From assembly GCA_003225365.1 (NCBI GenBank), contig QHZN01000085.1:1-64000 (forward strand): a DNA stretch of 64,000 nt. The letters run 5' to 3'. Origin of the DNA: Acidobacteriota bacterium. GTDB lineage: Bacteria; Acidobacteriota; Terriglobia; UBA7540. The position numbers were made by a program, and so were the translations under genes. The notes beneath the pieces were generated by a model. That model had not been told where the DNA came from. It ran no database searches and was given only the letters and a program-made list of their open reading frames with translations. Below are positions 26,089 to 35,037 of this stretch, piece by piece. Position 1 is the first letter of the stretch. Each line of letters starts with the position of its first letter.

Positions 26089-27504
26089 ATGCAAAAGGCT
26101 TTTTCGGCTCCTCTCGAGGTTCAACGACATTGGAATTGGGCTTGGCAGGTTGCTCGAGCCTTCCGCAGGAAGAATTTGGTTCCCGCCGCGCTGGCGGGGT
26201 ACCTCGTCCTGGCGAGCGTCCCGGAGGCGCGAGGTGTTGCCAGTTTTGCCCGCCAGACGGGGTTGCCGTGCAGTTCCTGCCACACAACCATCCCCGAGCT
26301 CACCCCGCTGGGCCGGCTCTTCAAGCTGAACGGTTACACGGCCACGGGGATCACGCAAATTACTTCGCAGGGCGGACCCTCGACCGCCGGCCTCAACATT
26401 AATACTTGGCTCCCGCTCTCCGCCTTCATCCAGCTCTCCAATACGGTCACCAACAAGCCTCAGCCCGGGACGCAAAACGGGAACTTTGAGTTTCCACAAG
26501 CGGTCAGCCTTTTCCTGGCCGGGGAGTATGCAACCCATGTCGGAGCATTTGTCCAGGTTACCTACGATGTACAAGCTGACCACTTCACGTGGGACAACAC
26601 CGACATCCGGTACGCCAACCGGACGAAGCTCGCGGGCAAAGAGCTCATCTACGGTATAACGCTCAACAACAACCCAACCGTTGAAGACCTCTGGAGCAGC
26701 ACTCCCGCCTGGGGATTCCCCTGGGTGGGGACGGACGTGGCGCCATCTCCGACTGCCGCGACGATCATTGACGGGACGCTCGGCCAAGATGTGGCCGGAC
26801 TCGGCGGATATGCCATGTGGAATAACCACCTCTACGGCGCAGCCACGATTTACCGCTCGGAACACATCGGCGGAACTCAGCCCAACAACGGGGCGGACTT
26901 CGGGTTCAACATCCGAGGCGTGGCGCCTTACTGGCGCCTGGCTTGGCAGCAGTCTTCGGGGAATAACTACCTCATGGTCGGTACCTACGGGATGCACTTG
27001 GCGACTACGCCCATCAACATCATGGGTCCCCAAGACTATTACACCGACTTTGCCGCAGACTTTCAATACGAGCGAATCTTTCCACAGCTCAAAAACGATC
27101 TCCTGACGGTGCATGGGACTTACATCCACGAAGGCTCCGACCTCTTCGCAACCTTCACGGGGAGCGGAGCGAACTTCGTCCATCACAATTTGAACACGTT
27201 GCGCGCTGACGCCGTCTACCACTTCGGAAACAAATACGCGGCGACTATCGGAGCGTTCGGCACCACGGGCTCCACCGACAACACGCTTTTTCCCCAAGCT
27301 GATGTTACCGGCAGCGCCACGGGAGACCCGAGAACGCGCGGCTACATCGCCAACGCGTCTTACTGGCCCGTTCAGAACATCCAGTTGGGTCTGCAATATA
27401 CCGGATACACGAAATTCAACGGGGGCGGCTCGAATTACGACGGAGCAGGCCGCCATGCGGGCGACAACAATTCGCTCTACATGGTGCTCTGGTTCATTTT
27501 CTGA
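26089..27504 (+). CDS. Outer-membrane monoheme cytochrome-porin fusion (Cyc2-like)
   Basis: 471 residues, with GGAGG seven bases before the ATG. An N-terminal leader (LVPAALAGYLVLASVPEARG) is followed by one heme motif, CSSCH (residues 61-65), in the context ARQTGLP before it and PELTPLGRLFKLNGY after it. The remaining 390 residues are amphipathic beta-strands rich in aromatic residues and N/G/T turns, ending in a terminal Phe (SLYMVLWFIF), the usual outer-membrane insertion signal. A single heme plug joined to a barrel of this size is the architecture of Cyc2, the outer-membrane Fe(II) oxidase of iron oxidisers. Homology to Cyc2 proper is inference from architecture and motif. The next gene codes for a copper protein and the complex III-like genes follow. 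Confidence 0.72.
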   Translation: MQKAFSAPLEVQRHWNWAWQVARAFRRKNLVPAALAGYLVLASVPEARGVASFARQTGLPCSSCHTTIPELTPLGRLFKLNGYTATGITQITSQGGPSTAGLNINTWLPLSAFIQLSNTVTNKPQPGTQNGNFEFPQAVSLFLAGEYATHVGAFVQVTYDVQADHFTWDNTDIRYANRTKLAGKELIYGITLNNNPTVEDLWSSTPAWGFPWVGTDVAPSPTAATIIDGTLGQDVAGLGGYAMWNNHLYGAATIYRSEHIGGTQPNNGADFGFNIRGVAPYWRLAWQQSSGNNYLMVGTYGMHLATTPINIMGPQDYYTDFAADFQYERIFPQLKNDLLTVHGTYIHEGSDLFATFTGSGANFVHHNLNTLRADAVYHFGNKYAATIGAFGTTGSTDNTLFPQADVTGSATGDPRTRGYIANASYWPVQNIQLGLQYTGYTKFNGGGSNYDGAGRHAGDNNSLYMVLWFIF

Positions 27505-27567
27505 GTGAGAGGCAGGCCGTCGGATGGAAATTTTTCATGCCCATGGCAGGCCGGAAAGGTTCCGAAA

Positions 27568-28326
27568 ATGACTTCAAGAAAAATCCTTGCTCTGCCGGCT
27601 TTCTTTGTCTCCGCGTGCCTGGCTCTTTTCGGCTGGCAGAAAGCGGCCTCGAGGAGGCCGTCGCTTCCGTCAGCAGAGCCTGCTGCCGTAGGCGAGATAT
27701 CCGGCCGAATCGTCTTCGAGGGCGCGCGTCCCTCGCTTGAAAGAACCGACATGTCAAGAGATCCGGTCTGCGCCGCGCAGCACAAAGACCCGGTTTATAT
27801 GGAAGATGGGAAGGTAAACACCGGCGGCGCTCTTCCCAATGTTTTTGTCTATGTCAAATTAGGAGCTGAACACCTGAAGTTTTCAGTCCCTTCCAATCCC
27901 GTCAAGCTCGACCAAACTGGCTGCGTCTATAAACCCCACGTCCTCGGACTCATGGTCGGCCAGACGCTCGAAATCTCCTCCAGTGATCCGACGACGCACA
28001 ACGTCCATCCTCTGCCGAAACTCAACCCTGAATGGAACCAGTCGCAGCCGCCGGGAGCCGCTCCGCTGAGGAGGCGGTTCAACCATCTCGAGATTATGAT
28101 TTCGGTCGAGTGCAACCGGCACCCGTGGATGTGGGCCTACCTCGGTGTCACCAGCAATCCTCTCTTCGCAGTCACAGGCGGGGACGGCAAGTTTGAGATT
28201 CCGAAAGTTCCGCCCGGCGAATACACCTTGGCCGCGTGGACAGCCACTTTCGGGACTCAGGAGCGGAAGATGACCGTCCAGGCGAACCAAACCGCCACCG
28301 CGGATTTCGTTTTCAGAGCCCCTTGA
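27568..28326 (+). CDS. Periplasmic cupredoxin with C-terminal carboxypeptidase-regulatory-like domain
   Basis: 252 residues; the ATG at 27568 follows GGAAAGG. A signal anchor/peptide (ILALPAFFVSACLALFGW) precedes a beta-rich protein. A type-1 copper set is readable: His144 in PTTHNVHPL, then Cys182-x2-His185-x2-Met188 in ECNRHPWMW, the compact C-x2-H-x2-M loop also seen in amicyanin. The end (GKFEIPKVPPGEYTLAAW) is a carboxypeptidase-regulatory-like module. Databases often name such proteins methylamine utilisation protein. It follows the cytochrome-porin by 63 bases and precedes the pentaheme cytochrome. A periplasmic electron carrier, like rusticyanin next to Cyc2, is the natural inference. 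Confidence 0.75.
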   Translation: MTSRKILALPAFFVSACLALFGWQKAASRRPSLPSAEPAAVGEISGRIVFEGARPSLERTDMSRDPVCAAQHKDPVYMEDGKVNTGGALPNVFVYVKLGAEHLKFSVPSNPVKLDQTGCVYKPHVLGLMVGQTLEISSSDPTTHNVHPLPKLNPEWNQSQPPGAAPLRRRFNHLEIMISVECNRHPWMWAYLGVTSNPLFAVTGGDGKFEIPKVPPGEYTLAAWTATFGTQERKMTVQANQTATADFVFRAP

Positions 28327-28479
28327 TTCCCGAAACGAAATGGAGTTGACTAGCTGTTTGGGCGGTTTTCTTTCTGTGCTTTTTGGGCACAGCCACCAGG
28401 TCAGACGTGAACTGCGCCCGCAAATCCTCAAGCCCTTTGGATCGCCCGAGCGGAGGTCCCAAGGTTCTGGAGTCGAGTT

Positions 28480-29106
28480 ATGTTACGGCAGCAACACAAT
28501 CTGGGATATGGGTTGGCCCTGGCCGCGACCAGCGTCTTGCTTTGGGGGCTTCTCAAAGGCCGAGGTCCCAACTACGACCCCGCTGCCCAAAGCGGTCCCC
28601 AGGAGCCGGGCGCGACTTCCGGCGTGTTCACTCCGGCTCATCCGAGCCTGGCCGATGCCTGGCGCGATTTTTTCAACCGGCGCCCCGCGCCCGAGCAGCC
28701 GATTGCGTACACGCACAAAGTCCACCTTGTAAAAGTCGGGATGCATTGTACCGATTGTCATGTGGGAGCGGATACGGGGCCTGACGCCCGCATTCCAGGC
28801 GTCAAGGTCTGTATGACCTGTCACCAGGTCATCGCCACGGACAAACCCGAAATTAAAAAATTGGCCGCGTACCTCCAACGAGGCGAAGAAATCCCCTGGC
28901 AGCGCGTATATGGTTTCACTGCACTGGCGCACCTCAAGTTCAATCACGCGCCGCACATCCGCGCGAGCGTGGACTGCAAGGTTTGCCACGGAGACATGAC
29001 GCAGGTAACCGTCGCCGCGCGCTCTGTGGACATAACGATGGGCTTTTGCATTGATTGTCACAAGGCGAAAAACGCTTCGATCGATTGCACGGTTTGCCAT
29101 TTTTAG
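28480..29106 (+). CDS. actA: Pentaheme cytochrome c, ActA-like subunit of alternative complex III
   Basis: 208 residues with an N-terminal membrane anchor (GYGLALAATSVLLWGLL). Five CxxCH motifs are present: CTDCH (90), CMTCH (111), CKVCH (166), CIDCH (190) and CTVCH (203), with spare His residues in HKVH and FNHAPHI that can act as sixth ligands. Five hemes and this spacing match ActA of alternative complex III, related to the cytochrome subunits of Qrc and other NrfD-type complexes. It should face the periplasm and connect the complex to electron carriers. Its stop codon TAG is the first three bases of a MITE-like repeat that separates it from the next subunit gene. Confidence 0.85.
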   Translation: MLRQQHNLGYGLALAATSVLLWGLLKGRGPNYDPAAQSGPQEPGATSGVFTPAHPSLADAWRDFFNRRPAPEQPIAYTHKVHLVKVGMHCTDCHVGADTGPDARIPGVKVCMTCHQVIATDKPEIKKLAAYLQRGEEIPWQRVYGFTALAHLKFNHAPHIRASVDCKVCHGDMTQVTVAARSVDITMGFCIDCHKAKNASIDCTVCHF

Positions 29107-29424
29107 CAGGCTGATGAAAAACACGCCGAAATGTCATGCTGAGCCCCATTCGCTTTGCTCACAGTTCGACTTCGCTCACTGTCCCTGAGCAGAGTCGAAG
29201 GGAGGGCAAGCTCTTCGCTTGTCATTCTGAGCGTAGCGAAGAATCCCTTTCATTCCGCGCTCAGGGTAGACTTCGCGAAGCATCTCGCAGTGGTTTGAAA
29301 TCAATATGATAGATTCTTCGCGGAGTTTACCCTGAGCGGAACTGCTGAGATGCTTCGCTCCGCTCAGCATGACAAGAGAAGGGCTCAGAATGACAACGTA
29401 AGACAATTTTTCATCAGCCTGCTA
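29104..29424. mobile_element. MITE-like element with 18-base perfect terminal inverted repeats (family A copy 2)
   Basis: The left end TAGCAGGCTGATGAAAAA (29104-29121) is the exact reverse complement of the right end TTTTTCATCAGCCTGCTA (29407-29424). The 321-base interior is non-coding, built of inverted segments such as GATTCTTCGCGGAGTTTACC and CATTCTGAGCGTAGCGAAG. The first TAG is also the stop codon of the pentaheme cytochrome gene. Related copies lie at 10795-11007 and 35059-35247. No transposase gene is in the window. Confidence 0.8.
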
Positions 29425-29513
29425 GTTTGGAGTTCCGAGTTCGGTGTTCGGAGTTCAGATTTAAGGGTCCGGCGTCCTATCTTCTGATTTCTGATTTGCA
29501 GTTCCGGATTCCC
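29425..29513. repeat. GTTCGGAGTTC-type short tandem repeat before actB
   Basis: Degenerate tandem copies of a G-T-T-C-G-G/A-G word (GTTCCGAGTTCGGTGTTCGG, AGTTCAGATTTAAGGGTCCGG) are followed by CTTCTGATTTCTGATTTGC. Almost the same array and tail recur at 31849-31934, before the next gene of the operon. No protein is encoded. Confidence 0.65.
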
Positions 29514-31844
29514 ATGGATCGTCGCGACTTTATCAAAATTTCGGCGATAGCTGGAACAACGGCGGCGCTCGACGGCTGCGGGCAGCCGGAGCATCAACTC
29601 ATCCGGTTCGTCCCGGAAGAAGACCTCGTCCCCGGCGTCGCCGCCTGGAAACCAGGGGTGTGCGCGCACTGTTCGGCGGGGTGTGGCCTGCTGGTGCGCG
29701 TGATGCCGGGTGAAGCGGAAGTTGTCCGCGGAAACAAGGTCGGGCTGATTCAGATGGGGCTGGCGAAGAAGCTCGAGGGAAATCCCGGACATCCGGTCAA
29801 CCGCGGGAAGCTTTGCCCGCGTGGCCAGGCCGGGGTTCAGTCGCTTTACCATCCCGACCGCATCCGGGGCCCGCTCAAGCGCAGCGGCGCGCGTGGCTCG
29901 GGAAGTTTCGAGGAGATTGGCTGGGACGAGGCGCTAGGCACGTTGGTGTCGCACCTGACGACACTGCGCAAAGGAGACGGGGCGTCTTCGCTGGCCTTTC
30001 TGATCGGGCCGATGCGCAGCCAGCGCCGCGCGCTCATCGAGCGCTTTCTCCGCGCTTTCGGCGCCCCTCCGCCGGTGACTTCTGAATTGTTTGACGACGC
30101 GGTCTTGCGCCGCGCCAACGCCTTGAGCTTCGGCCACACGCAGTTGCCTACGTTCGACCTCGGCCGGGTAAACTACCTGGTTTCCTTCGGGTCGGACTTC
30201 CTCGGCACCTGGAATTCGCCGGCCTCGCAGGCCATCGGTTACGGCGAGATGCGCCAAGGGCACTCGGGGCGGCGCGCCAAGCTGGTTCAAATCGAACCTC
30301 GCATGTCGCTGACCGGCGCCAGCGCCGATGAGTGGATTCCCTGCCGCTTGGGATACGAAGGTGTACTGGCCCTAGGCATCGCGCGCGAGCTGCTGGCGAA
30401 ATTCCCGGAGGCGAAGACGCTTGCGGCCGGGCGGCTCCTCGCCGGCTGGAGCGACGGCCTGCCCGACTACGCGCCCGCCAGCATCGAGAGACTGACCGGC
30501 GTGCCGGCCATGACCGTCGCGCGGCTCGCAAGCGAAATCGCCGAGAACGTACCCGCGCTTTCCCTGATCAGCGGCGCACCGCTCGCCGGGACCAATGGGC
30601 TGTTCAACGCGCTTTCAGTGAACGCCCTGAACGCGCTGGTGGGCGCGCTCACGCCGACGGGGGAGCCCGACGTACTTCAATTCACTCCCAACGCCCCCTT
30701 GGCACCCGACTTTGCGGCCGCCACGGCCGAGTCCCCGGGTTGCTTCTCCGCGGTCGAAGCCCTCGTCCGAGAGATTCTCCTCGACCAGCCGCACGCGCCC
30801 CAAGTCCTGCTTCTCTACGGAACCAATCCTGTCTTTGCTATGCCCCCTCAATCGCAGGTCCGGGCGGCGCTCGAAAAGGTGCCCTTTATCGCCAGCTTCG
30901 ACGGCATTCTGGACGATTCGAGCGCGCTGGCTGACTTGATTCTCCCCGACCACTCGCCGCTTGAGTCCTGGGTTGACCAAATTCCGGAGTCGGGCACGAC
31001 GGTCGAGACCGTGAGTCTGGCCCCGCCGGCGGTTTATCCGCTCCACGATACACGCGCCATGCCCGGCGTCCTTCTCGAAGTCGCTCATCGGCTGGGGGGG
31101 GAGGTCGCTGACGCTCTGCCGTGGAAGACTTTCGACGAAATGCTCAAGGCCGCTTACGCGCCATTGATGAAAGCCGGCGGTTCCATCGCCGCAACTTCCG
31201 AAGACGATTTTTGGGAAAAGATGCAGTCGCAGGGAGGTTGGTGGGGTCAAGCCGACCCTGAAGCCGCGCAGCCTGCTGTCGGACCGCGCCGGCGCGCCAA
31301 ACGCGGCAAGGCCGTTTCCACGCCCGCGCCGCACGCACCCTTAGCCTTCCAGCCGCCGGAATTCGACGGCTCGGAAACCGACTTCCCCTTCCACTTGCTG
31401 CCATTCGCCACGCAGGCTTTCGGCGACGGAACGCTCGCTCACTTGCCCTGGATGCAGGAGCTGCCCGATCCACTGACGACCGCCATGTGGGGTTCGTGGG
31501 TGGAAATCAATCCACGCACGGCGGAAGCGCGCGGGATTCGGCAGGGTGACTTGATCGAACTCACCTCGCCCCAGGGATCCTTGCGAGCGCCCGCGCTCCT
31601 CACACCCGGGATAGCACCGGACGTGATCGCCATGCCCGTCGGGCAGGGGCATGAGAATTACGGCCGCTACGCAAGCCATCGCGGGGCAAATCCGATTTCG
31701 ATATTGTCGCCGAAGAAAGAGGCGGAGACCGGCGCCCTAGCCTGGGCGGCCACGCGGGTCCGTATCGCGCGCGTGGGCGAAGGAAAGCTAGTGCTGTTTG
31801 CCGGAGGGATGAGCCGCTTCCCGGAAGAGAAGGGGCTGAGGTGA
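29514..31844 (+). CDS. Molybdopterin-oxidoreductase-like large subunit of alternative complex III (ActB1)
   Basis: 776 residues from ATG at 29514. A twin-arginine signal (MDRRDFIKISAIAG) ends near DGCG, which could also be lipidated. An Fe4S4 motif is intact: Cys50-x2-Cys53-x3-Cys57 (CAHCSAGC) and Cys101 in GKLCPRGQ. The molybdopterin family fold follows (YLVSFGSDFLGTW; VQIEPRMSLTGASADEWIP; LYGTNPVF; LILPDHSPLESW). No clear Cys, Ser or Sec metal ligand is seen in the expected place, consistent with non-catalytic ActB/QrcB relatives. The C-terminal domain IDLTSPQGS-like part is present (DLIELTSPQGSLRAP). In ActB of Rhodothermus this part is fused to the Fe-S part; here they are separate genes. 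Start and ribosome site are weak. Confidence 0.85.
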   Translation: MDRRDFIKISAIAGTTAALDGCGQPEHQLIRFVPEEDLVPGVAAWKPGVCAHCSAGCGLLVRVMPGEAEVVRGNKVGLIQMGLAKKLEGNPGHPVNRGKLCPRGQAGVQSLYHPDRIRGPLKRSGARGSGSFEEIGWDEALGTLVSHLTTLRKGDGASSLAFLIGPMRSQRRALIERFLRAFGAPPPVTSELFDDAVLRRANALSFGHTQLPTFDLGRVNYLVSFGSDFLGTWNSPASQAIGYGEMRQGHSGRRAKLVQIEPRMSLTGASADEWIPCRLGYEGVLALGIARELLAKFPEAKTLAAGRLLAGWSDGLPDYAPASIERLTGVPAMTVARLASEIAENVPALSLISGAPLAGTNGLFNALSVNALNALVGALTPTGEPDVLQFTPNAPLAPDFAAATAESPGCFSAVEALVREILLDQPHAPQVLLLYGTNPVFAMPPQSQVRAALEKVPFIASFDGILDDSSALADLILPDHSPLESWVDQIPESGTTVETVSLAPPAVYPLHDTRAMPGVLLEVAHRLGGEVADALPWKTFDEMLKAAYAPLMKAGGSIAATSEDDFWEKMQSQGGWWGQADPEAAQPAVGPRRRAKRGKAVSTPAPHAPLAFQPPEFDGSETDFPFHLLPFATQAFGDGTLAHLPWMQELPDPLTTAMWGSWVEINPRTAEARGIRQGDLIELTSPQGSLRAPALLTPGIAPDVIAMPVGQGHENYGRYASHRGANPISILSPKKEAETGALAWAATRVRIARVGEGKLVLFAGGMSRFPEEKGLR

Positions 31845-31848
31845 GGCT

Positions 31849-31934
31849 AGGGGTTCGGAGTTCGGGATTCGGGGGTTCGGAGTTCGGGGTCCGGAGTTGG
31901 GAGTTCTGATTTCTAGTTTCTGATTTGCTTTTTA
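31849..31934. repeat. GTTCGGAGTTC-type short tandem repeat before the Fe-S subunit gene
   Basis: GGGGTTCGGAGTTCGG and further near-copies run to GTTCTGATTTCTAGTTTCTG and end at the ATG of the next gene. The array and its tail match the one at 29425-29513. No ribosome site is visible before the ATG, so the repeat occupies the normal Shine-Dalgarno position. Confidence 0.65.
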
Positions 31935-32638
31935 TGGACCACAAATGGAGCATGGTCGTTGATCTCGACCGCTGCACGGGCTGCGAAGCGTGCGTGGTCG
32001 CCTGCCGCGCGGAGAACAACGTTCCCACGGCCGGCGAAGATGAGGCTGCGCGTGGCCGTGTGATCCATTGGATCCGCGTGGAGCGCTACTGGGAAGGCGA
32101 ATTCCCGAACCCTCGAGTTCGGTTCCGGCCCGTACTTTGCCAGCAATGCGACGCCGCGCCTTGCGAGCCGGTCTGCCCTACCTACGCGAGTTACCACACG
32201 CCGGAAGGCTTGAACGCCCAAATTTACAACCGCTGCATCGGCACACGCTATTGCGGCAACGCCTGTCCCTACACGGTTCGTTACTTCAATTTCTTCAACC
32301 CTGTGTGGGACAAACCGCTTCACCTGCAACTGAATCCTGACGTCTCGATTCGACAGGTCGGAATCATGGAGAAGTGCACGTTCTGTGTGCAGCGCATCAA
32401 GGCGGCGGAAATCCAAGCGAAGGCCGAGAAGCGGGACCTGATAGAGGGTGAATTCACCACGGCGTGCGCGCAGGCCTGTCCGCCGAAAGCCCTGGTGTTC
32501 GGCGACCTCAACGATCCGCAAAGCGAAGTCTCGCGTCTGAACCGTTCGAACCGAGCCACCAAGCTCCTCGAGGAAGTGGGCACGCGCCCGAGTGTGACCT
32601 ATCTGGAGCGCGGAACCTGGCGCGGGGAAAAGACCTGA
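31934..32638 (+). CDS. Four-cluster Fe-S subunit of alternative complex III (ActB2-like)
   Basis: About 234 residues; ATG at 31934 is used, though the true start may be the Met seven codons on. Four cysteine sets bind Fe-S clusters in the NrfC/PsrB pattern: DRCTGCEACVVACRAENN; CQQCDAAPCEPVCP; RCIGTRYCGNACPYTVRY; and KCTFC with ACAQACPPKA. One incomplete set may hold a 3Fe-4S cluster, as in ActB. It should carry electrons between the cytochrome side and the membrane quinone site. It follows the large subunit by about 90 bases and precedes the NrfD subunit. Confidence 0.9.
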   Translation: MDHKWSMVVDLDRCTGCEACVVACRAENNVPTAGEDEAARGRVIHWIRVERYWEGEFPNPRVRFRPVLCQQCDAAPCEPVCPTYASYHTPEGLNAQIYNRCIGTRYCGNACPYTVRYFNFFNPVWDKPLHLQLNPDVSIRQVGIMEKCTFCVQRIKAAEIQAKAEKRDLIEGEFTTACAQACPPKALVFGDLNDPQSEVSRLNRSNRATKLLEEVGTRPSVTYLERGTWRGEKT

Positions 32639-32678
32639 AAGGCGCCGTGCTCATTCCAAAAGGGAGGCCCGCTCGCTC

Positions 32679-34094
32679 ATGGTGATGAACCGCGACGATA
32701 TTGCGCGCCTCAACGAAGACCTTCTGCGGCCACTTTTCCGCACCTCCGGAAGATTCTACTGGGCCGCGCTAATCCTCGCTCTAATTGTCATCGTGGCCTT
32801 GGCTGCCTGGGGCTATCAGTTGTGGGCCGGTTTCGGAGTCGCAGGTCTCAACCGGCCTGTCTACTGGGCATTTTACATCACGAACTTCGTCTTCTGGATC
32901 GGTATCAGCCACGCCGGGACACTGATTTCCGCCATCCTACGCCTGGCCAACGCACGCTGGCGACGCCCGGTTACCCGCTGCGCTGAAGTCATCACGGTCT
33001 TTGCGCTGATGATCGGCGCGTCCTTCCCCGTCATTCATCTCGGCCGGCCCTGGCTTGCCTTTTGGCTGTTTCCTTACCCGAGCGAGCGCAGGATTTGGCC
33101 GAATTTTCGCTCGCCCCTGGTCTGGGATTTCTTCGCCATTACTACATATCTGACCGGCAGCACGACCTTCTTGCTGCTGCCCATCATTCCGGATTGGGCG
33201 TTGGTCCGGGACAAGGCGAAGGGTTGGCGGAGGAAGCTCTACTCGGTTCTGGCGCTCGGTTGGCGGGGCACGCCTCGGCAATGGTCACGCCTCGAAACAG
33301 CTATGCACATCATGGCGGTGGCCATCATCCCCGTCGCCGTCTCCGTTCACACCATCGTCTCGTGGGACTTCGCCATGGCGCCGGTGCCCATGTGGCATTC
33401 GACGGTGTTCGGCCCGTACTTTGTGGCCGGGGCCATCTTCAGCGGCATTGCGGCCCTGATCCTCGCCATGGCCATACTGAGAAAGGTATTGCATCTCGAG
33501 GATTATTTGACGCCGCTCCATTTCGACAACCTCGGCAAACTCTTGCTGATGATGAGCTTATTTTGGCTCTACTTCATCGTCGCGGAGCGTCTCACCGTCT
33601 GGTATGGCAATGAGACTTCCGAAATGGCCGTCTATTGGCCCACTCAGCGCGGCCCGTTCGCTCCCCTCTATTGGACGATGATTGGCTGCAATTTTCTGGT
33701 CCCTTTCATCATTCTGTCCATCAAGCAGCTTCGAACCGTCGCTGGAACGGTGGTCGCTTCTTCAACCATTGTCGTGGGCATGTGGATCGAGCGATTCCTG
33801 ATTATAGTGCCGCCGCTCGAGCGCAAGTATCTTCCTTTCGCCTGGGGGACCTATCACCCGAGGCCGGTCGAGATCATCATTACGGCCGGAACGTTCGCCG
33901 CGATGGCGCTCCTCTATCTCTTATTTGTCAAATTTGTTCCCATTATTTCGATTTGGGAGTTGAAGGCGGGAGTGCGGCAGGAGTCCGTTGTCCCGATTCC
34001 GGCGTCTTTGCTTCGCGCTCCCGACTTGATCGAGTCACCTTCGCCAAGCGGCTTAACACGCGGGCCGGCGGGATTTTCCAGGGAGGTCTCCTAG
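32679..34094 (+). CDS. actC: NrfD-family quinone-interacting membrane subunit of alternative complex III (ActC)
   Basis: 471 residues, with GGGAGG about 12 bases upstream. Around ten hydrophobic helices are apparent (FYWAALILALIVIVALAAWGY; FWIGISHAGTLISAILR; FALMIGASFPVIHLGRPWLAF; IIPVAVSVHTIVSWDFAM; YFVAGAIFSGIAALILAMAI). The ISHAGT and HLGRP motifs and the charged/His residues in the helix bundle are typical of long NrfD proteins such as ActC, where they line a quinone site and a proposed proton path. It overlaps no neighbour; the DUF3341 gene starts on the next base. Confidence 0.92.
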   Translation: MVMNRDDIARLNEDLLRPLFRTSGRFYWAALILALIVIVALAAWGYQLWAGFGVAGLNRPVYWAFYITNFVFWIGISHAGTLISAILRLANARWRRPVTRCAEVITVFALMIGASFPVIHLGRPWLAFWLFPYPSERRIWPNFRSPLVWDFFAITTYLTGSTTFLLLPIIPDWALVRDKAKGWRRKLYSVLALGWRGTPRQWSRLETAMHIMAVAIIPVAVSVHTIVSWDFAMAPVPMWHSTVFGPYFVAGAIFSGIAALILAMAILRKVLHLEDYLTPLHFDNLGKLLLMMSLFWLYFIVAERLTVWYGNETSEMAVYWPTQRGPFAPLYWTMIGCNFLVPFIILSIKQLRTVAGTVVASSTIVVGMWIERFLIIVPPLERKYLPFAWGTYHPRPVEIIITAGTFAAMALLYLLFVKFVPIISIWELKAGVRQESVVPIPASLLRAPDLIESPSPSGLTRGPAGFSREVS

Positions 34095-34613
34095 ATGCCA
34101 AAGAAACCGGTCATCTACGCCCTTTGTCCTGACCCGGAGGCTGCTCAACGGGCAGTGGAGGGATTGCGCCGCGCGGGCATTGAGGCGCGCAATATTGCGG
34201 TGGTATCGTCCGAGCCTTTCGAAGGCTACGAGTTTTCCCGCCGCGACCACCAGACTCCCATGCCGTGGCTGGCCGCGCTGGGGGGCGTGGTAGGGGGAAC
34301 ATCGGGGTATTTCCTCGCCGCAATGACACAGCGCTCCTACCCTCTGCCCACCGGCAACATGCCCATCGTGGCGCTTTGGCCGACGGGAGTCATCGTCTAC
34401 GAAATGACCATGCTCGGCGCCATCCTCGTGACGCTCTTCACCATGTTTATCTCCGCGCGCCTTCCCAATTGGCGTGCCCAGCTTTACGACCCTGCGGTTT
34501 CGGATGGTATGATCCTGGTGGGTGCGACAAACCTTAGCCAAGCGTCCCGCATCGAAGCTAATAGGGTCCTCGGTGAGGCTGCCGGAGGGCAGGTCAAAGA
34601 AGTCGGCCTTTGA
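34095..34613 (+). CDS. actD: DUF3341 membrane subunit of alternative complex III (ActD)
   Basis: 172 residues, starting directly after the actC stop, with GGGAGGT inside the end of actC. An N-terminal soluble ferredoxin-like fold (VIYALCPDPEAAQRAVEGLRRAG) precedes two membrane helices (MPWLAALGGVVGGTSGYFLA; VIVYEMTMLGAILVTLFTMF) and a short C-terminal alpha/beta piece (VSDGMILVGATNL). DUF3341 is characteristic of alternative complex III and separates this locus from Qrc or polysulfide reductase operons, which lack it. Confidence 0.92.
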   Translation: MPKKPVIYALCPDPEAAQRAVEGLRRAGIEARNIAVVSSEPFEGYEFSRRDHQTPMPWLAALGGVVGGTSGYFLAAMTQRSYPLPTGNMPIVALWPTGVIVYEMTMLGAILVTLFTMFISARLPNWRAQLYDPAVSDGMILVGATNLSQASRIEANRVLGEAAGGQVKEVGL

Positions 34614-34650
34614 CGGGGCTGGCTAAGCGATTTATTCCAAGGGAGGACTG

Positions 34651-35037
34651 ATGACAACGTTTACGCGAAAGCTGGCCTTGCCTGGAGCTTTTTCAGTCGC
34701 CCTGCTGGTTTCGTGCGCGCTCGCAGGAGTCTCGACGGGCAAAGAGGGGAAGAGCAAGCCCGCGCCCGAGGTCGCCAAGGGCGAGGCCGTCTTCAAGCAG
34801 AATTGCGAATTATGCCATTATGCGGACCGCATTGATAAGAAACTTGGCCCTGGCCTCAAAGGGCTCTTCAGCCTCAAGGAACTTCCTTCCAGCCATAAGC
34901 CGATCACGGAAGAAAACGTCCGCGCCCAAATCGAGACTGGCAGTCCAAACGCCAAACCCATGCCTATGCCGCCGTTCAAAGACAAGCTCAAGCCGGCGGA
35001 AATGGATGCCCTCATCGCTTACTTGAAGACTCTTTAG
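34651..35037 (+). CDS. actE: Monoheme cytochrome c (ActE-like)
   Basis: 128 residues with GGGAGGAC before the ATG. The signal reads LPGAFSVALLVSCALAG, where LVSC could be a lipobox anchoring the protein. One heme motif (CELCH, residues 52-56) and a Met-rich ligand region (PNAKPMPMPPFKDKL), then the closing helix PAEMDALIAYLKTL, make a class I cytochrome c. As the last gene of the operon it matches ActE. No second NrfD subunit (ActF) and no oxidase genes follow. Confidence 0.87.
   Translation: MTTFTRKLALPGAFSVALLVSCALAGVSTGKEGKSKPAPEVAKGEAVFKQNCELCHYADRIDKKLGPGLKGLFSLKELPSSHKPITEENVRAQIETGSPNAKPMPMPPFKDKLKPAEMDALIAYLKTL

Follow-up and report, generated by a model that had tools for sequence, protein, structure and literature searches.

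Here we describe a row of eight genes in a 64,000-nucleotide stretch of DNA from an Acidobacteriota bacterium (GenBank assembly GCA_003225365.1, contig QHZN01000085.1, positions 1 to 64,000; hereafter the window). The row occupies 26089–35037 on the plus strand and joins a Cyc2-like cytochrome-porin and a cupredoxin to the subunits of a split variant of alternative complex III (ACIII). Close sister loci of the porin carry different quinone-oxidizing complexes, and a dedicated but interchangeable complex III is therefore part of the porin module. Because relatives retain the pore while complex III is exchanged for an unrelated type with the same job, the row is probably a wired electron route between the respiratory chain and external metals. 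The host draft genome comprises 5.16 Mb in 421 contigs and is 91.7% complete; in our numbering, the window lies on contig C263. All eight open reading frames (ORFs) were confirmed, with intergenic gaps of 0–320 bp, and the single-strand row described in an initial annotation of the window stands at these coordinates.

The first gene (26089–27504, plus strand) encodes a 471-aa protein with a single CxxCH at residue 61 and Phe as its last residue. Published Cyc2 criteria comprise a length of at least 365 aa, one CXXCH, the signature AXPXFAR[Q/K][T/Y] before the heme motif, and PXL after it (PMC8406198). The window protein has the length and the single CXXCH, and its heme motif CSSCH is preceded by GVASFARQTGLP and followed by TTIPEL. 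It reads GVASFARQT-GLP-CSSCH-TTI-PEL, retaining five of the seven fixed upstream positions, with A and P replaced, and the downstream PXL. Across 52 porin homologues, the strict motif is present in 15 and a relaxed form in 43. An AlphaFold2 model built with the 52 sequences (predicted template modelling score, pTM, 0.73) contains 16 long strands, and Foldseek matched it to OmpU, Omp-Pst1, OmpF and Omp32 (E 1e-9 to 1e-6); Pfam gave no match and a PDB sequence search returned no relatives. Together, the single CxxCH and the 16-strand porin model bear out the single-heme beta-barrel protein of the initial annotation, and a model with no barrel, the outcome that would have spoken against it, did not arise. 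The N-terminal plug (residues 43–71) is modeled at a local confidence (pLDDT) below 50 and without heme, so that heme placement in the barrel is presumed.

Porin homologues occur in 61 of 399 genomes of the class, and the best 80 named relatives are all acidobacterial (Terriglobia, Acidobacteriaceae, Sulfotelmatobacter, Granulicella and Acidipila records), pointing to Terriglobia as the class of the host. Several record names (palsa, bog, peat soil) suggest peat and permafrost habitats, and isolate codes may indicate mine-type habitats. We label the 471-aa protein Cyc2-like, a putative assignment, because two signature positions differ, the plug model has low confidence, and acidobacterial homologues are reported to share a similarity cluster with Leptospirillum Cyc572 (PMC10654088). 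Contig C212 of the same genome (locus L085, 8351–9814) encodes another protein bearing a Cyc2-type signature (AIPAFARKY...CSACH...PKL), adjoining a diheme cytochrome c and a relative of the cupredoxin (42%).

The second gene (27505–28326; likely start codon revised to ATG 27568) encodes a periplasmic cupredoxin with a C-terminal CarboxypepD_reg domain. Pfam recognized just this and similar C-terminal domains, while the predicted cupredoxin model (pTM 0.77) matches the amicyanin/plastocyanin fold and also CuA. The copper ligands, with H in TTHNVH and C, H and M in C-x2-H-x2-M, are invariant as T-T-H-N...C-x2-H-x2-M in 12 close homologues, and CxxHxxM is kept in 58 of 58. Fold and ligands (H, C, H, M) are those of a type 1 copper protein, as initially annotated; loss of the ligands among homologues, which would have counted against that annotation, was not seen. 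The accompanying comparison with rusticyanin holds as far as a cupredoxin lies beside a cytochrome-porin; with no sequence match and amicyanin, plastocyanin and CuA as the listed fold matches, we rejected rusticyanin identity, and the comparison is one of analogy alone. In the genome's own bc1-cox operon (contig C338), a relative of the cupredoxin (49%) has a multiheme cytochrome on one side and CoxB on the other. From this placement, the cupredoxin family is likely to relay electrons onward from complex III.

The remaining six genes encode an ACIII-type complex and a small cytochrome. Above-cut-off Pfam matches in the row are Cytochrome_C7, Molybdopterin/Molydop_binding/Molybdop_Fe4S4, Fer4, NrfD, ActD and Cytochrom_C; with the heme motifs and a twin-arginine start they agree with the initially annotated pentaheme, TAT-exported molybdopterin-type, Fe-S, NrfD, DUF3341 and monoheme components. 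The ActA-like pentaheme cytochrome c (28480–29106; PF14522) carries five CxxCH motifs and finds its best PDB matches in ACIII ActA (E 1e-26). ActB is present as two genes. The molybdopterin-family subunit B1 (29427–31844; PF00384/PF01568/PF04879) has a 4Fe-4S motif (CX2CX3CX43C) and a Tat start, MDRRDF, at 29514, where we place its likely ATG; it is just 26% identical to canonical ActB. The ferredoxin subunit B2 (31925–32638; Fer4) shares 56% identity with the C-terminal domain of the fused canonical ActB encoded elsewhere in the genome. The ActC-like NrfD membrane subunit (32679–34094; PF03916; 6f0k_C, E 1.5e-97) keeps 21 of the 22 quinol/proton residues listed for R. marinus ActC (PMC5928083). 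The ActD (DUF3341) subunit (34095–34613) weakly matches ACIII ActD chains in the PDB and exceeds the PF11821 cut-off (81.7 against 25.7 bits).

The last gene, a small monoheme cytochrome c (34651–35037; PF00034), stands in the ActE place and gave no alignment with the genome's canonical ActE. It matches, at 50%, a cytochrome in the bc1-type porin locus L088. As both L088 and the ACIII-type locus L089 have it, this cytochrome may be a component of the porin module and not an ACIII subunit. No ActF was found in the row, and the split clusters inspected in class relatives gave no match to a further NrfD-like subunit. The alternative complex III of the initial annotation stands for its A, B, C and D subunits; with ActB split and ActF missing, the sequences define an ActF-less, split ACIII-type variant and not canonical ACIII. 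Contig C89 of the same genome carries a canonical ActA-F cluster in which ActB is fused; with the split row and the C338 bc1-cox operon, the genome has three complex III systems.

We examined porin linkage in two sets: the best 80 named acidobacterial porin loci, with complex III counted within 10 kb, and 40 class-level porin loci, counted within the stretch fetched. Same-strand complex III accompanies the porin at 49 of the 80 named loci (43 bc1, 6 split ACIII, none with both) and the copper gene at 46. An oxidase (CoxAB) is present at 6, none of which has complex III. At class level, the copper gene is found at 21 of 40 loci and complex III at 13. A control of 21 loci chosen by ACIII, comprising 20 split clusters and the genome's own canonical one, contained bc1 or oxidase at 0 of 21. 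There is partial overlap between the two sets of loci. Porin and ACIII are linked in 6 of the 20 genomes that have both, across two gene orders and no fewer than two families; chance linkage at this level is about 3e-8, a rough estimate because related genomes are not independent. The order porin-copper-A-B1-B2-C-D-E is found in the window and L089, and is followed by L045 to its contig end, where no copper gene was detected; A-B1-B2-C-D-porin is found in L090, L164 and L176. In the porin tree, bc1-bearing L088 and ACIII-bearing L089 are sisters at 100/100, and ACIII loci fall on several separate branches. Nine such loci were counted; L154 was left out as a spurious label, having just a 29% Fe-S match.

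Additional cytochromes lie beside some of these loci. In L090 (12964–19790, identical to L050), a beta-rich protein of 909 aa is encoded 3′ of the split ACIII and porin, along with cytochromes of 8 and 10 hemes. The 909-aa protein had no Pfam match when checked for MtrB/PioB identity, and the set may form a further conduit of porin and cytochromes. A recurrent neighbor of the bc1 genes and the porin, in L080 (6184–8250) and about 25 named loci, is a cytochrome c-type protein with eight hemes.

The analysis shows the gene set, the folds and ligands, the conservation of the quinone/proton residues and the repeated linkage to an exchangeable complex III; the electron route, its partner contacts, its outward direction, the quinone type and iron as substrate are inferred. 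The row would act as one respiratory branch joining the quinone pool and the cell exterior. The ActC-like subunit would oxidize menaquinol at its periplasmic site, and electrons would pass via the Fe-S and pentaheme subunits to the cupredoxin, the small cytochrome c or both. They would then reach the outer-membrane porin, at the lone heme of its plug, and leave to a dissolved external acceptor, most likely Fe(III), with energy conserved by the split ACIII. Electron export with Fe(III) respiration is the use of the row that we lean toward, at somewhat short of an even chance. More tentatively still, QT-type Cyc2-like porins at large may be outer-membrane terminal reductases. Cupredoxin would bring them electrons from a dedicated complex III, exchangeable between bc1 and ActF-less ACIII, and both heterotrophic Acidobacteriota and acidophiles that carry the plasmids would have a monoheme, non-Mtr form of Fe(III) respiration.

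We favor export because complex III rather than oxidase is linked to the porin, the host looks heterotrophic, and homologues on Acidiphilium plasmids lie beside genes for O2-independent ubiquinone and nucleotide synthesis. RuBisCO had no match in the host genome. Porin homologues are carried on plasmids of Acidiphilium cryptum JF-5, A. multivorum and At. ferrooxidans YQ-N3 (L201, L202 and L013), in an island where the Cyc2-like gene and a c-type cytochrome adjoin UbiT, UbiU, UbiV, class III NrdD and PdxST; in JF-5 the latter genes exceed NCBIfam cut-offs. On the A. multivorum plasmid, the porin gene is annotated as two pieces. JF-5 reduces Fe(III) anoxically at pH 3, strains of Acidobacterium and Acidicapsa do so at low oxygen, and a ferric reductase role has been proposed for Cyc2 of At. 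ferrooxidans (all PMC8790237). The cupredoxin relative in the host's bc1-cox operon likewise fits an acceptor downstream of complex III. Several points weigh against export. Every biochemically tested Cyc2 oxidizes Fe(II) (PMC8406198). What the plasmids offer is a single mobile island, at 34–35% identity, and no acidobacterial locus, and CoxAB replaces complex III at some acidobacterial loci. The missing RuBisCO is compatible with CO2 fixation by another route or with Fe(II) oxidation in a mixotrophic mode, in a genome that is 92% complete, and the outward direction is read from gene content and context.

The initial annotation had proposed an outer-membrane-to-quinone pathway for metal oxidation or electron export. 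Structure, ligands and recurrent linkage support the conduit well, and metal oxidation is not the better-supported direction. In that direction, Fe(II) would be oxidized at the porin heme, cupredoxin or cytochrome c would feed an oxidase elsewhere, and split ACIII would run in reverse to reduce quinone, a scheme put forward for Cyc2 with ACIII in neutrophilic iron oxidizers. The three Cyc2 proteins so tested (PMC8406198), the haem-copper oxidases in the host genome and CoxAB beside the porin in 6 of 80 relatives fit such inward flow. So do the split act clusters that co-occur with cyc2 in Gallionellaceae and Mariprofundus, where this role was proposed (PMC4643136, PMC5566968), and a published Cyc2-Cyc1-ACIII model with bc1 suggested as a substitute (PMC5566968). 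However, with no RuBisCO found the host has little apparent need for uphill electrons, the row holds no oxidase, the porin is seldom linked to oxidase and usually to complex III, and its plasmid relatives accompany anaerobic genes. We consider inward flow unlikely, if a serious contender.

It is less probable that the conduit serves another external partner (humics, manganese, an electrode or a partner cell), in either direction according to redox conditions. A pore with one heme does not by itself dictate the substrate, Cyc2 has been discussed for Mn(II) oxidation (PMC9040806) and in a biocathode organism (PMC5371394), and the multiheme set in L090 lies by the same genes; the pore, however, favors dissolved metal ions, as argued in PMC8406198. 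We regard it as quite improbable that porin and cupredoxin form one functional unit and the adjacent ACIII genes another. Most strong split-ACIII matches in the class lie away from the porin, and at many porin loci the copper gene is the sole partner, yet linkage in 6 of 20 genomes, in two orders and at least two families, and the bc1 complex in the same position in relatives argue against separate units.

The row is interrupted between ActA and ActB1 by a 321-bp insert (29104–29424, plus strand) resembling a miniature inverted-repeat transposable element (MITE), with 18-bp perfect terminal inverted repeats. The repeat has 49 matches across the genome and 0 in a control, and the element, absent from the same-genus locus L045, has no part in the pathway. 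A SnoaL-like ORF and an amino-acid permease lie 5′ of the row and an EF-P-like gene on the opposite strand 3′ of it, the permease and EF-P names being read from the translations. With no viral relatives, a viral origin of the row was rejected. MarR-type or Crp/Fnr-type regulators lie 5′ of the porin gene in L054, L047 and L053 and nearby in L073, L065 and L068; the window has neither type directly 5′ of the porin.

Cyc2 homologues, split act clusters, acidobacterial Cyc572 homologues and the idea of a Cyc2-ACIII pathway are already known, the last, raised again in the initial annotation, being published for Zetaproteobacteria and Gallionellaceae (PMC4643136, PMC5566968). A search of open-access literature found no report in Acidobacteriota of Cyc2-type porin-complex III linkage or of bc1/ACIII exchange there, which does not prove novelty, and no paper on the Acidiphilium plasmid context of the Cyc2-like gene. 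The row places a Cyc2-type porin and complex III, previously connected only via co-occurrence in iron oxidizers, in one genetic unit, and two unrelated complex III types substitute for each other beside the porin. Cyc2 homologues serve as markers of iron oxidation; if the reducing direction holds for this widespread acidobacterial branch, reading its homologues as such markers in metagenomes from soil, peat and mines would be an error. The direction can be tested in Acidipila rosea, a named strain that has the bc1 version.

Finally, we compared the row with known systems. With Cyc2/Cyt572 of Acidithiobacillus, Leptospirillum and Mariprofundus, the window porin shares most of the N-terminal signature with one CxxCH and then PxL, the porin barrel, the length and a location beside periplasmic electron carriers. 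It differs in the replaced A and P, in its link to complex III instead of oxidase, and in a host that is no known iron oxidizer. The rus operon of At. ferrooxidans (cyc2-cyc1-cox-rus) likewise combines cytochrome-porin and cupredoxin, whereas the window has complex III in place of oxidase and a cupredoxin of amicyanin/plastocyanin type by fold, with an extra C-terminal domain. Desulfovibrio Qrc has separate B and C subunits, and NCBIfam Qrc models are the best matches for A, B and C; we rejected Qrc membership, as QrcA, QrcB and QrcC all score under cut-off (70.8/180, 278.8/440 and 251.9/400 bits), ActD is present and the NrfD subunit is nearest ActC. Canonical ACIII (Rhodothermus, Flavobacterium and the host's C89 copy) shares ActA, ActC and ActD homologues and the conserved ActC residues, and differs from the window in its fused ActB, its ActF and a recognizable ActE, with B1 showing the low identity given above. 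The split actAB1B2CDEF clusters of Gallionellaceae and Zetaproteobacteria (Kato 2015, PMC4643136) share the split ActB, the 4Fe-4S motif in B1, the A-B1-B2-C-D-E order and Cyc2-bearing genomes, whereas the window row, in another phylum, is without ActF and carries porin and cupredoxin directly 5′.

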